A stretch of 37,040 nt of DNA, from contig NZ_JAQCNJ010000009.1 in the NCBI RefSeq assembly GCF_028275055.1, positions 1 to 37,040 on the forward strand. Direction: 5' to 3'. The notes beneath the pieces are model-generated. The model was not told the DNA's origin. It worked only from the letters and a program-made list of their open reading frames with translations, and ran no database searches. The translations under genes and the position numbers were made by a program. Source of the stretch: Haloplanus sp. (GTDB lineage: Archaea > Halobacteriota > Halobacteria > Halobacteriales > Haloferacaceae). Numbering within the stretch: the first letter of the stretch is position 1; each line of letters opens with the position of its first letter. Below are positions 1,657 through 4,046 of this stretch, piece after piece.

Positions 1657-1700
1657 TCATGGATGTACACGAGTACGTACCCAGAGACGTACTGCCAAAC
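1627..1700. repeat. 12-bp-periodic A(C/T)GTAC array, six units
   Basis: GTAC occurs at 1629, 1641, 1653, 1665, 1677 and 1689, exactly 12 bp apart. Each is preceded by AC or AT, and extra copies sit at 1633 and 1673. The six bases between copies vary. GTAC is self-complementary, so the array reads the same on both strands. It straddles the stop codon of the nucleotidyltransferase (1657-1659). Read on the minus strand in another frame it would encode a (x)Y(V/I)(x) tetrapeptide repeat, so a decayed coding repeat is an alternative to a protein-binding array. Confidence 0.7.
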
Positions 1701-2625
1701 GCTTGCCGTCCCCTCCCTGTGCCGCCATTGAGACGATCCGAACGCGCCGAGCTAGTTGGACGAGGGGTGAACCATCCCCATTTCGGTCAAGGATTTGTTT
1801 TTCGACGAGACGATCGATCCCAGCAGACACCGCCTCCTCGTCGCCAACGGAGAGCTCTCGGACGTTCGAAAGAACACGTTCGCTGATCGCGCGTGGACTC
1901 CGAAGGCCCTCATCGACCGCTTCCAAGATACCGTACTCAACTTCGAATTCGGTTGCGAACTCCGACACGCGATCCGTAAACGAGGATGGCAGCCCGGAAA
2001 GCGACTGTACAGCCACCTCGATAGTAAACAACGGGTGAGATTGATTACGGATATGCGTCGCTTCAATTGACCCCGTATTGAACGGGCGCTGTTCCTCAAT
2101 CTCGTTGAGAATCACTTCGTAGGCGAGTCCACGCTGCGCGTACGTCCGCATATCTTCAATGTCGCGTCGTCTGCCAGCCCCTAAGTCGCCGCCGGACACT
2201 GCCTTCAACAAGAACAAATCCTCGTCAGCGAGCACGTACGCCGTTGCATACTCCCCTGTCCAGAACTCGTCCGCCCGGTCGTGCATGCTCTCTGTGATCC
2301 AGACTTTCCCGACAACCTGTTGCTCAAACAAGTCAACCCGAAACCCGCGGCCAGGATGGTAGAGCTCAACCGTTTTCCCAACCCCGTCGAATGACGCGGT
2401 CGGCTCACCCGTCACCTGAAACCCTTGTTCTCGAAGGGCGTGATAGACGTGTTCGAATTCGGTTGGCACGCCGAGGGCCAAGTCGATATCTTCGGTTTGG
2501 TCTTTCAGCCCGCGAACTGTCATTGCAGACCCGCCAAGGAGGTACACGTCCACCGATTCTGAGATCCACTCGTCAAACTCGGCAAGAAACGTCTTGATGG
2601 CCTCCTCGCCGCTGAAGACGGTCAT
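1657..2625 (-). CDS. Nucleotidyltransferase, AbiEii/MNT-like, putative toxin of a two-gene module
   Basis: The 322-residue protein has the DNA polymerase beta-type nucleotidyltransferase signature. LGGSAM at 30-35 is the GGS loop, D46 and D48 lie in EDIDL, and D98 in RVDLF would complete the metal-binding triad. A second block around 118-140 (DLFLLKAVSG...RRRDIEDM) matches the lysine and RDxED region typical of AbiEii and related toxins. The C-terminal third (about 225-290) looks like a winged helix. The ATG at 2625 directly follows the TAA of the upstream regulator (2626-2628), so the two are almost certainly translationally coupled. AbiEii toxins transfer nucleotides to target RNAs; the substrate of this protein is unknown. 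The last 25 or so residues are basic, and the stop falls inside the GTAC repeat array, so the original C-terminus may have been changed there. Haloarchaeal relatives are generally annotated only as nucleotidyltransferases. Confidence 0.82.
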   Translation of the reverse strand: MTVFSGEEAIKTFLAEFDEWISESVDVYLLGGSAMTVRGLKDQTEDIDLALGVPTEFEHVYHALREQGFQVTGEPTASFDGVGKTVELYHPGRGFRVDLFEQQVVGKVWITESMHDRADEFWTGEYATAYVLADEDLFLLKAVSGGDLGAGRRRDIEDMRTYAQRGLAYEVILNEIEEQRPFNTGSIEATHIRNQSHPLFTIEVAVQSLSGLPSSFTDRVSEFATEFEVEYGILEAVDEGLRSPRAISERVLSNVRELSVGDEEAVSAGIDRLVEKQILDRNGDGSPLVQLARRVRIVSMAAQGGDGKRLAVRLWVRTRVHP

Positions 2626-3582
2626 TTATACGACTCCATACTGATCTTTCAGCGCCGCGTATTCTTGAGCACTCGGCAAGGGACTTCCCGCCTCCATCTC
2701 ATCGGCGGCGTCAGTGCCTTCGTCTATAAGACGATACATCCGGGGTATCATTGAGTCCAGACCGTACCAAGTCGCAGTCTCGGTGAGTGTTTCCTGTTCG
2801 ATTCGTTCCTGTTCGATGAGCAGCATCGCGTAGCTCACGCGTCGGGAGTCAGTGTTGAGGACGAGTGTATGGCAAACGATGTCTGCAAGGGTGAGATCGT
2901 CGTCTGGCGCGTACCAGAAGGCGGGTTCTCCTGCAAGGAAGAACTGCAGGCCGTACGCTTGGAATTCCGCTAATCCAGTCACGTCCCAGTCGTCGGCGTT
3001 CTGGAGTTTCTCCGTGTCTTCGGAGGTTTGTACTTGGACGAGCGCGCGTTTCGGGTCATACCACGCAATTGTGGCACTGGGCGCGAGTCGCCGAACACGG
3101 TTGCGATGGCCATGCCTGACGACGGTGTTGGCGAATTCGAGTAAGGGGTGAAGGTCGTCGGCGAGTGCGTACTCTGGGCCGGCGGGAGCGAGCATCGCTC
3201 GGTTCTTCAACGGGGATAACGCCTTGTGGACAGCCTGTCGCGTAATTCCTAATCGGTCAGCGATTGTGGTGATGCGGCGTGGTTCATCAAGGTACCAGCA
3301 GACCTGTATCGTGGCCGGTGAGAGGAGGTCCGCCCAGTCCACGTGCCCGAGGTTCGATGTCAGGTCCCGGTACGCTTCGACAATCGGGTCGTCAGAGGCG
3401 CGCAGGACACGCTGGTTGTGCTGCGCTCGGGACTCGTCCAGTACCCCTTTGTCGAGTAAGTCGTCAACGACGCGGTAGACCTGCTTGCGACTATACCCGG
3501 TTTCTGCGGCCAGCTCTTGTGCGGTTGCGTCCGCCCCGGAACTCAGCACGTCTAGAATAGCGAGCCCGGCCTTCGTAAGCAT
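2626..3582 (-). CDS. Winged-helix regulator, putative antitoxin paired with the nucleotidyltransferase
   Basis: The 318-residue protein contains two helix-turn-helix segments. One is near residues 20-48 (QELAAETGYSRKQVYRVVD) and one near 103-131 (TTIADRLGITRQAVHKALS), each followed by a wing-like turn. The remaining roughly 190 residues form an alpha/beta domain starting around ATIAWYDPKRALVQVQ that I cannot assign. The arrangement of DNA-binding N-terminus, unassigned C-terminal domain and an abutting nucleotidyltransferase gene parallels AbiEi-AbiEii. In those systems the first protein represses its own promoter through inverted repeats and neutralises the toxin. The promoter here does carry such repeats (3585-3638). 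ATG 3582 is preceded by a TATA element about 30 nt upstream. The size and the second HTH are larger than a minimal AbiEi, so homology needs a profile search. It could also be a MarR-like regulator co-opted as an antitoxin. Confidence 0.78.
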   Translation of the reverse strand: MLTKAGLAILDVLSSGADATAQELAAETGYSRKQVYRVVDDLLDKGVLDESRAQHNQRVLRASDDPIVEAYRDLTSNLGHVDWADLLSPATIQVCWYLDEPRRITTIADRLGITRQAVHKALSPLKNRAMLAPAGPEYALADDLHPLLEFANTVVRHGHRNRVRRLAPSATIAWYDPKRALVQVQTSEDTEKLQNADDWDVTGLAEFQAYGLQFFLAGEPAFWYAPDDDLTLADIVCHTLVLNTDSRRVSYAMLLIEQERIEQETLTETATWYGLDSMIPRMYRLIDEGTDAADEMEAGSPLPSAQEYAALKDQYGVV

Positions 3583-3638: not shown

Positions 3639-3825
3639 CCAGCCTCTATACCGTCGGAATCCCCCCGGGTGAAGGATTGTGACTTCCAGCCTCTTCTCAG
3701 TTGGAACACAGACGAGAATCCGCGCGGGACGCGAAGAGTACCGAGTCGAGTTTATCGAATTGGTCGTGAGGAAATCCGAGGGGGTCGCCCACGCACCGCT
3801 CCGTGGGCATTTGAACCGTGAGTAT
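3639..3825 (-). pseudogene. Possible decayed coding remnant between island operon and partial tRNA
   Basis: No intact gene fits this stretch. On the minus strand one frame reads MPTERCVGDPLGFPHDQF and continues protein-like to about 3735. A neighbouring frame then continues with ILVCVPTEKRLEVTILHPG to a stop at 3633, as if one frameshift had split a short C-terminal coding segment. I cannot name the parent family. A short hairpin with GCCCACG and CGTGGGC arms lies near 3787-3808. The end of this remnant overlaps the operator of the wHTH gene. Confidence 0.22.
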
Positions 3826-3934
3826 GATGCCGCCTCCCCGATTTGAACTCGCCGAAAGACTCGCTGGCGCTCGTCTTTCGACTTCCCGCTCACTCCGTTC
3901 GCGGGAAGGGGGACAGCTCGATCTTCAGTCGAGT
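3826..3934 (-). repeat. Partial tRNA-Phe copy, interrupted; probable attachment-site remnant
   Basis: Bases 3826-3848 are identical to 3971-3993 (the 3' end of tRNA-Phe plus two flanking bases). Bases 3908-3934 are identical to 3994-4020 (variable region through anticodon arm). The two blocks are adjacent in the real gene but separated here by 59 bp. The copy stops within the anticodon arm, so it is the 3' portion that tRNA-targeting integrases typically duplicate. It lies 145 bp from the intact gene, on the side where an integrated element would sit, and so marks an island boundary or the scar of an earlier insertion. Confidence 0.75.
3849..3907. repeat. 59-bp double-hairpin insert within the partial tRNA
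   Basis: The insert holds two perfect stems. The first is CGAAAGAC (3853-3860) with GTCTTTCG (3873-3880). The second is TTCCCGC (3883-3889) with GCGGGAA (3901-3907). It splits the tRNA copy exactly between the T-loop sequence TTGAAC and the following GGGGG, with no obvious target duplication. It could be a miniature palindromic element or an extragenic repeat; its inner words look like short repeats I associate with haloarchaeal intergenic DNA. Confidence 0.6.
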
Positions 3935-3972
3935 ACGAACGTTTTTCGAATGAAAACCGCGTAGAAGCCGGA

Positions 3973-4046
3973 TGCCGCCTCCCCGATTTGAACGGGGGAC
4001 AGCTCGATCTTCAGTCGAGTGCTCTCCCAGTCTGAGCTAAGGCGGC
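3973..4046 (-). tRNA. tRNA-Phe (anticodon GAA)
   Basis: The minus strand folds into a standard 74-nt cloverleaf including discriminator A. The acceptor stem is GCCGCCT with AGGCGGC. The D arm begins AGCTCAGACTGGGAGAGC. The anticodon stem is CTCGA/TCGAG around CTGAAGA, giving anticodon GAA. The T arm carries GTTCAAATC. There is no intron and no encoded CCA. A partial copy lies 145 bp downstream of its 3' end, so this gene has served as an integration target. Confidence 0.95.

Follow-up and report, generated by a model that had tools for sequence, protein, structure and literature searches.

The 59-nt insert at 3849-3907 of the window, the whole 37,040-nucleotide stretch of Haloplanus DNA analysed here, is the two-hairpin core of a tRNA-tail cassette. 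Such a cassette consists of hairpins together with sequence copied from the 3' part of the tRNA gene beside it, and lies just downstream of that gene in the same direction. Tied to tRNA genes, the cassettes occur widely across the class, and what they copy agrees with the local tRNA. At orthologous tRNA ends there may be no unit, one unit or a tandem array. We tentatively favour the reading that they are DNA-level, non-autonomous units of the tRNA 3' end that are converted, recombining and template-switched. They are not classed here as a MITE, an att site or attC, because none of these kinds is borne out in all its defining features, and we know of no enzyme that mobilizes them. No description of such cassettes was found in the titles and abstract openings of the open-access papers that our searches listed.

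The features of the window locus, in the order of the tRNA strand, are as follows.

3973-4046, minus strand: tRNA-Phe(GAA), the parent gene (ARAGORN; Rfam RF00005, 61.3 bits)
3935-3972, minus strand: spacer of 38 nt from the tRNA 3' end to the copy (CATCC..TTCTAC.CG, also in other genera)
3908-3934, minus strand: copy block 1, with anticodon arm, variable region and T-stem 5' strand (27/27 identical to 3994-4020)
3849-3907, minus strand: insert of 59 nt with both hairpins
3882-3908, minus strand: hairpin A (arms CTTCCCGC/GCGGGAAG in plus-strand letters; loop on the tRNA strand GAACGGAGTGA)
3853-3880, minus strand: hairpin B (arms CGAAAGAC/GTCTTTCG; loop on the tRNA strand GAGCGCCAGCGA)
3826-3848, minus strand: copy block 2, with T-loop, T-stem 3' strand, acceptor 3' strand, discriminator and 2 further nt (23/23 identical to 3971-3993)

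An earlier note on this DNA had described a 59-bp double hairpin that splits a tRNA copy in the T arm, and the exact repeats that flank 3849-3907 (27/27 and 23/23) confirm it. The split falls between the T-stem 5' strand and the T-loop side (G-TTCAAAT), and two of the 23 nt of block 2 run past the tRNA end. Both stems are perfect, as had been said, and are 8 bp long: hairpin A has arms at 3882-3889 and 3901-3908 and an 11-nt loop, and hairpin B has arms at 3853-3860 and 3873-3880 and a 12-nt loop. The final base of hairpin A, 3908, is part of the tRNA block and lies outside the insert. By eye, no target duplication is visible at either end of the insert, again in agreement with the note. The loop motif GA-RC-GN(1-2)A-GY-GA has two matches in the window, which are hairpins A and B; together with the recurrence of the structure at tRNA-Phe in other genera, this speaks against a chance arrangement. 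When the source genome (79% complete) was searched with 3780-3960, it returned only this locus and two matching tRNA-Phe parts. There was no match to the window cassette in phage records, and one plasmid record gave a partial 42-nt match (E limit 1e-5 for both).

Did the double hairpin land in a tRNA copy that was already there, as an independent miniature palindromic element in the lineage of the window? Or, are hairpins and copy a single unit? Among 12 genomes of the genus, the unit was found downstream of tRNA-Phe in G001, where two lie in tandem with a 266-bp period, and as a single unit in G007. With the insert and its edges as query, matches were found in 52 of 170 genomes of the family; five candidates were scored per genome, so that copy numbers are lower bounds. 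From this search 29 loci (L325-L353) were inspected. Thirteen are cassettes beside tRNA-Phe, from the window and 12 other genomes, and they fall in six genera including that of the window (g1, g2, g3, g10, g16 and g19). Locus L336 has a cassette with a tRNA-Phe 3' copy and no tRNA within 1.5 kb, two loci are near tRNA-Pro, and the other 13 are not tRNA cassettes (4 of these have some tRNA gene within 1.5 kb). The non-cassette loci match one hairpin or an imperfect pair, and some of their matches are multi-copy within one genus, e.g. in G020, G180 and G019.

The position of the split is identical in all 14 tRNA-Phe cassettes inspected, across the six genera. The copy is interrupted at the same point in a tRNA-Tyr cassette of G002, whose layout is like that of the window, so the cut at this point recurs both at tRNA-Phe in other genera and at another tRNA. 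Copy and hairpins are therefore one shared unit. The earlier suggestion of a miniature palindromic element is supported as regards the palindromic nature of the unit and its bond to tRNA sequence; it is not supported as regards a free-standing element that entered a copy already present at this locus. That reading has in its favour the similar hairpins in repeats away from tRNA cassettes (13/29 loci). Set against these, the split and order are the same in 14 cassettes of six genera, the spacer is common to several of them, there is no target duplication, and no uninterrupted version of the window's copy was seen among the cassettes inspected. We consider it extremely improbable. A local insertion event is rejected, with the same split present in six genera, and an archaeal tRNA intron within the copy was dropped, as the copy is without the D arm and the acceptor 5' strand.

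The earlier note had also held that a common extragenic repeat at random sites would undo its interpretation. Single hairpins, and a similar pair in one genus, do occur away from tRNA cassettes. However, among the matches scored, all 12 that reach at least 60 of the 67 query positions are at tRNA-Phe cassettes, and a random extragenic repeat is rejected for the whole unit, not for single hairpins. From the 29-locus survey we conclude that the hairpins belong to a wider haloarchaeal repertoire and that their arrangement is bound to tRNA-Phe. Five of the loci (L339, L343, L346, L347 and L350, in G339, G180, G026, G213 and G019) contain a non-tRNA repeat with a window-like hairpin pair (GATTCCCGCGA..GCGGGAAGTCGAGAGACG..), and in several of these genomes there was more than a single match. 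Other hairpin clusters, near e.g. GTGGGACTGAAAGGGGC or GACGCAAGCACCGCAG, lie outside tRNA cassettes at L332, L333, L335, L338 and L035.

The copy follows the gene that it stands beside. Among these genomes the T-stem of tRNA-Phe has two forms, ..CCCCCGTTCAAATCGGGG.. and ..CCCCGGTTCAAATCCGGG.., and at 13/13 loci with a tRNA both T-stem strands of the copy are of the local form (8 the first form, 5 the second; the copy at L331 was read from the printed flank). Smaller departures are an additional base in the T-loop of the copy at L330, an inner duplication in the cassette at L340, and an inverted loop of hairpin A in G007. Mean identity among 14 sequences is 0.81 for the cassette and 0.49 for the preceding 55 nt, which are not one shared spacer; at the 7 loci that do share a spacer it is 0.85 for the insert and 0.64 for the spacer.

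The tRNA-Phe unit is one form of a larger family. RF00005 has 47 matches in G001 and 44 in G008; among the matches listed, 38 and 37 loci were examined, and a copy of the tRNA's own 3' end follows the tRNA at 17/38 and 14/37 of them, usually past hairpins. When the same tRNA end was sought after other tRNAs, it was found in 3/359 cases in G001 and 2/349 in G008, and the shuffled control gave 0/38 and 0/37. Some of the loci without a counted copy contain decayed copies, as judged by eye. Dense clusters of tRNA matches were seen on a contig other than the main one at G005:C3:5153-8630, G004:C1:401628-403110 and G002:C3:89218-91183.

Three forms of cassette can be described. In type I, the short form, only about the last 14 nt of the tRNA are copied. 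In type II, the common form, hairpin I is followed by an inverted copy of the local tRNA's own T-loop and T-stem 3' strand; CAGGGAG, the variable hairpin and CGACCGTG come next, and then T-loop through 3' end. In type III, the form in the window, the copy begins at the anticodon arm.

Within the class, the type II consensus was found in 187 of 391 genomes and in 68 of 86 genera; the reversed pattern had no occurrence among the matches listed. Of 30 loci from this search, 27 follow a tRNA at a distance below 400 nt, and in 22 the 3' end of that tRNA is copied with no more than 2 mismatches. In a draw from the phylum, type II was present in 23/53 genomes of the window's family and order and in 0/241 others, a split counted from the kinship of each genome to the window. 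A scan of GTDB contigs gave at least 127 type II matches in at least 119 stretches, and the 80 record titles listed read as haloarchaea or archaeal bins. Among the GTDB matches listed, 120/127 have a tRNA on the same strand less than 400 nt upstream and none is flipped. The other 7 have neither arrangement, and 5 of these begin at most 180 nt from the start of the stretch. The matches listed span 31 isoacceptors, and the 15-nt 3' end of the local tRNA recurs exactly in 73/120 and with at most 2 mismatches in 101/120. In 115/127 of them the Y/R pair formed by anti-T-loop and T-loop is a matching one. The outer pairing is 2.72; when the partners are shuffled it is 1.43, and at most 1.72 in 1000 shuffles.

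In 12 genomes of the genus, a search with just the inner boxes (CAGGGAG..CGACCGTGG) gave 76 matches vs 3 when reversed. Of 30 inner-box loci, some of them overlapping, 24 are at most 600 nt after a tRNA and 5 are cassettes without a nearby tRNA; the remaining one, L300, appears to be a chance match. The density of the loop motif in G008 is 13.9 per 10 kb on the tRNA strand and 5.4 on the other strand in the 350 nt after tRNAs, vs 0.45 and 0.35 in a background of 400 kb. If a stem of at least 4 bp is required, the counts are 5 and 2 after tRNAs vs 0 and 0 in the background, and by the strict loop definition there are none among 402 background hairpins. Many of the tRNA-strand loops are GA-RC-G(N)NA-GY-GA, while the short variable cores (44/107) have a mostly pyrimidine-rich loop. 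GNA loops, e.g. in d(GCGAAGC), form very stable DNA mini-hairpins. The form of these loops fits folding as single-stranded DNA, and does not prove it.

The layout of type II brings to mind a folded single-stranded recombination site, such as the attC of integrons. Here, folding of the hairpin on the tRNA strand would bring back a double-stranded T-arm site whose terminal structure varies, and this site would be swapped with the tRNA 3' end by a tyrosine recombinase. Type II resembles attC in its paired boxes, its variable terminal hairpin, its single orientation and its arrays beside one fixed site; the outer boxes, anti-T-loop and T-loop, are matched, and the inner ones, CAGGGAG and CGACCGTG, are conserved. 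Integrons with attC have been reported in Archaea, and the passages on them in PMC9668308 mention neither tRNA nor haloarchaea. Unlike attC, the cassettes have units of 65-266 bp, which by their length would be too short for ordinary genes, and their outer boxes are the tRNA's own T-loop sequence. In addition, identical tandem units look like duplication. We regard an attC-like site as unlikely, and quite unlikely the broader proposal of a class-wide haloarchaeal machinery of this kind, with folded single-strand sites at tRNA 3' ends and the T-arm site rebuilt for each tRNA. If such a machinery did exist, tRNA genes would be fixed entry points for small non-coding cassettes.

The number of units differs between genomes at the same tRNA. 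At the tRNA-Phe locus, no type II unit precedes the type III cassette and its spacer in G000, G119, G352 and G206, one does in G167, G185 and G657, and three of 122 nt each do in G024. Within genus g2, G206 has no unit and G185 has one, with similar flanks. Arrays of 2-7 copies are present at Met, Gly, Leu, His and Glu tRNAs, with tandem units of 65-266 bp, and in the one wide cassette pair inspected, in G001, a second tRNA-Asp precedes the second cassette. Because tRNA ends flank each unit, precise recombinational loss explains an absence as well as insertion explains a presence.

The variable cores differ less at the same tRNA across genomes than by chance (0.399 vs 0.480, 0/2000 permutations, 107 cassettes), a comparison that includes the effect of genome relatedness. 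Much of the inheritance is therefore vertical, and the cassettes are largely inherited in place. Within genomes the cores are also more alike than by chance (0.457 vs 0.525), and 8 identical core pairs were found at separate loci vs 0.89 expected; this test covers 94 cassettes from 33 genomes, a subset among the matches listed, and takes no account of tRNA identity. Cores thus seem to spread or convert within genomes. Some segments have been flipped as well. Between the tRNA-Met cassettes L071 (G001) and L109 (G008), an inner segment of 34 nt that sits between the inverted T-arm copies is 32/34 identical when flipped and 16/34 in direct orientation. Together with the loop flip in G007, this suits palindrome-driven template switching, which is a plausible source of both the flips and the perfect stems.

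Integrative elements use the same tRNA ends. Could the cassettes be leftover or decoy attachment sites of such elements, i.e. attR remnants? In archaea, tRNA 3' ends are a main doorway for mobile DNA, and the stretch from anticodon arm to 3' end, which is the extent of the window's copy, is a usual size of an att site (passages of PMC8371274). The att sites of the SSV, pNOB8 and SNJ2 integrase families are like the cassettes in having a tRNA 3' copy downstream of an intact gene (same passages); the target region is common to both, and such elements occur at the same tRNAs. Seven cassettes without a nearby tRNA could be examined (five from the genus, L193 and L280), and 7/7 have a partial copy of the same tRNA end 57-183 nt upstream with 0-2 mismatches. 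An attR would be preceded in this way, and the arrangement fits an integrative element that had inserted at the tRNA and so displaced the cassette; the site that elements use would thus seem to be the tRNA end proper. In G005, a tRNA gene sized like tRNA-Arg(TCT) lies 5.7 kb upstream of the cassette in the same direction. An 8.2-kb integrated element was also seen at tRNA-Phe in G011 (C3, about 298.7-307.1 kb; L288), with a Phage_integrase gene beside the distal tRNA 3' copy.

Against attR remnants, the att copy of the G011 element is shorter, its T arm is uninterrupted and the hairpin boxes are missing from it. No attR-like distant copy of the 3' end was seen beyond the cassettes at 113 loci, over a mean of 3.3 kb downstream; the two matches were a coding-like one at 943 nt (L191) and one inside another tRNA gene (L256). 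The type II pattern was found in 0 contigs of IMG/VR, and the window cassette has no phage match. An attR does not need an inverted T-arm copy. Further, the window differs from an attL-element-attR arrangement in that only the 38-nt spacer, with no element or integrase, lies between gene and copy, and the cassettes differ from att sites in the hairpins inside the copy and in their tandem arrays. We hold this origin to be very unlikely.

A role at the RNA level is possible, if rather improbable in our judgement. The cassettes would then be transcribed, structured tRNA trailers with stems under RNA selection, e.g. a terminator, a processing signal or a small RNA, in which the anti-T-arm segment is masked by its own T-loop copy. 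Wherever a tRNA is found, the cassettes are always on the tRNA strand, and this fixed orientation suits an RNA or single-strand role. Copy and insert together, on the minus strand, fold as RNA at -50.9 kcal/mol with z -3.7 (as DNA, z is -1.8 and 13/200 shuffles are equally good), and the conservation of the insert above the spacer at 7 loci points the same way. The stems of the tRNA-Phe cassettes covary: in 13 aligned cassettes 94.0% of the stem cells are paired vs 91.1% when shuffled, and 13 cells, which count sequences and not events, are changed on both sides vs 4.3, at 5 pairs vs 2.7 (4 in hairpin A and 1 in hairpin B). However, further pair types are not in excess of shuffles (9 vs 9.7), whole units are lost or multiplied between species, and tRNA was the sole family matched up to E 1 when Rfam covariance models were run on the window and L022-L025.

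Mismatches within stems bear on the same question. If RNA pairing were under selection, G.U should exceed A.C. The G.T : A.C ratio is 23 : 24 for single stem mismatches in all cassette regions (shuffled 10 : 11), 12 : 19, 3 : 6 and 3 : 5 in longer stems, 3 : 3 in the variable cores and 6 : 6 in the T-arm pair, vs 17 : 0 in tRNA acceptor stems. It is 24 : 15 in hairpin I (shuffled 10-12 : 6-8) and 8 : 2, counted in cells, in the tRNA-Phe set. The generic scan gave only 16 : 7 and 178 : 125 when run on tRNAs, so the mismatch test is not a clean one. The evidence from these sequences is mixed: most mismatch sets appear unlike RNA, and the tRNA-Phe set leans the other way. The excess of G.T over A.C in the tRNA-Phe set and hairpin I is the reason for which we keep an RNA role in play.

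Under our preferred reading of a non-autonomous, DNA-level unit, the unit would belong to the 3' end of its tRNA. Units would be multiplied or lost when the repeated tRNA ends recombine or slip, with the tRNA itself left intact. Gene conversion would keep the copies in step with the gene, and template switching at palindromes would perfect the stems and at times flip them. For the first arrival at a new tRNA, one candidate is a tyrosine integrase whose att sites are these same 3' ends. Several points weigh against this reading, among them the largely vertical inheritance and the mixed mismatch test. Presence and absence could be loss alone, through the direct repeats that flank each unit, and a simple two-way palindrome process does not predict an orientation of 120 : 0.

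Other repeats are also found beside tRNA genes. Downstream of the E. coli tyrT gene there are tandem repeats (rtT RNA), each with part of the tRNA 3' end, at one locus. The cassettes differ from these in their presence at 31/75 tRNA loci in two genomes and in their tailored hairpins, and no match to RtT up to E 1 was obtained in the Rfam search of the window and L022-L025. The mitochondrial tRNA genes of Neurospora are flanked by GC-rich palindromes of one fixed sequence, which are not known to contain a tRNA copy; the likeness to the cassettes is in the position of palindromes beside tRNA genes. Within the haloarchaea, the PATEs, MITEs and SMRs of Haloquadratum walsbyi are short elements with no room for a transposase, and PATEs and SMRs make no target duplication (passages of PMC3119063). 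The cassettes share with PATEs and SMRs, as described there, the short length, the haloarchaeal host and, at the window locus, the lack of a visible target duplication. Unlike PATEs, MITEs and SMRs as those passages present them, nearly all copies that the type II pattern picked out are placed at the 3' end of a tRNA and contain sequence of that same tRNA.

A large share of the tRNA genes in one class has tailored, self-similar tails, which could be explained by a new kind of element bound to tRNAs, by a new type of recombination site or by a new feature at the RNA level. The cassettes also make it harder to annotate haloarchaeal att sites, tRNA fragments and proviral ends. They are present in named strains, several with DSM or JCM numbers, so that the readings given here are open to experiment.

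Some further features of the window locus may be added. The ORF that adjoins tRNA-Phe is, judged from its translation, presumably ftsY. Downstream of the copy, two adjacent ORFs lie at 1657-3582 on the minus strand. One encodes an HTH protein that matches HVO_2833_C (PF24271), and the other, without a Pfam match, is presumably a nucleotidyltransferase; the pair is possibly toxin-antitoxin-like. Directly past the tRNA-Phe copy, at 3786-3820, there is a second T-loop-like stretch (GTTCAAATGCC) followed by a hairpin. A T-loop-like stretch and hairpin are likewise present downstream of the copy at L336, and a stretch resembling GTTCAAATGCC follows the cassette in G041.
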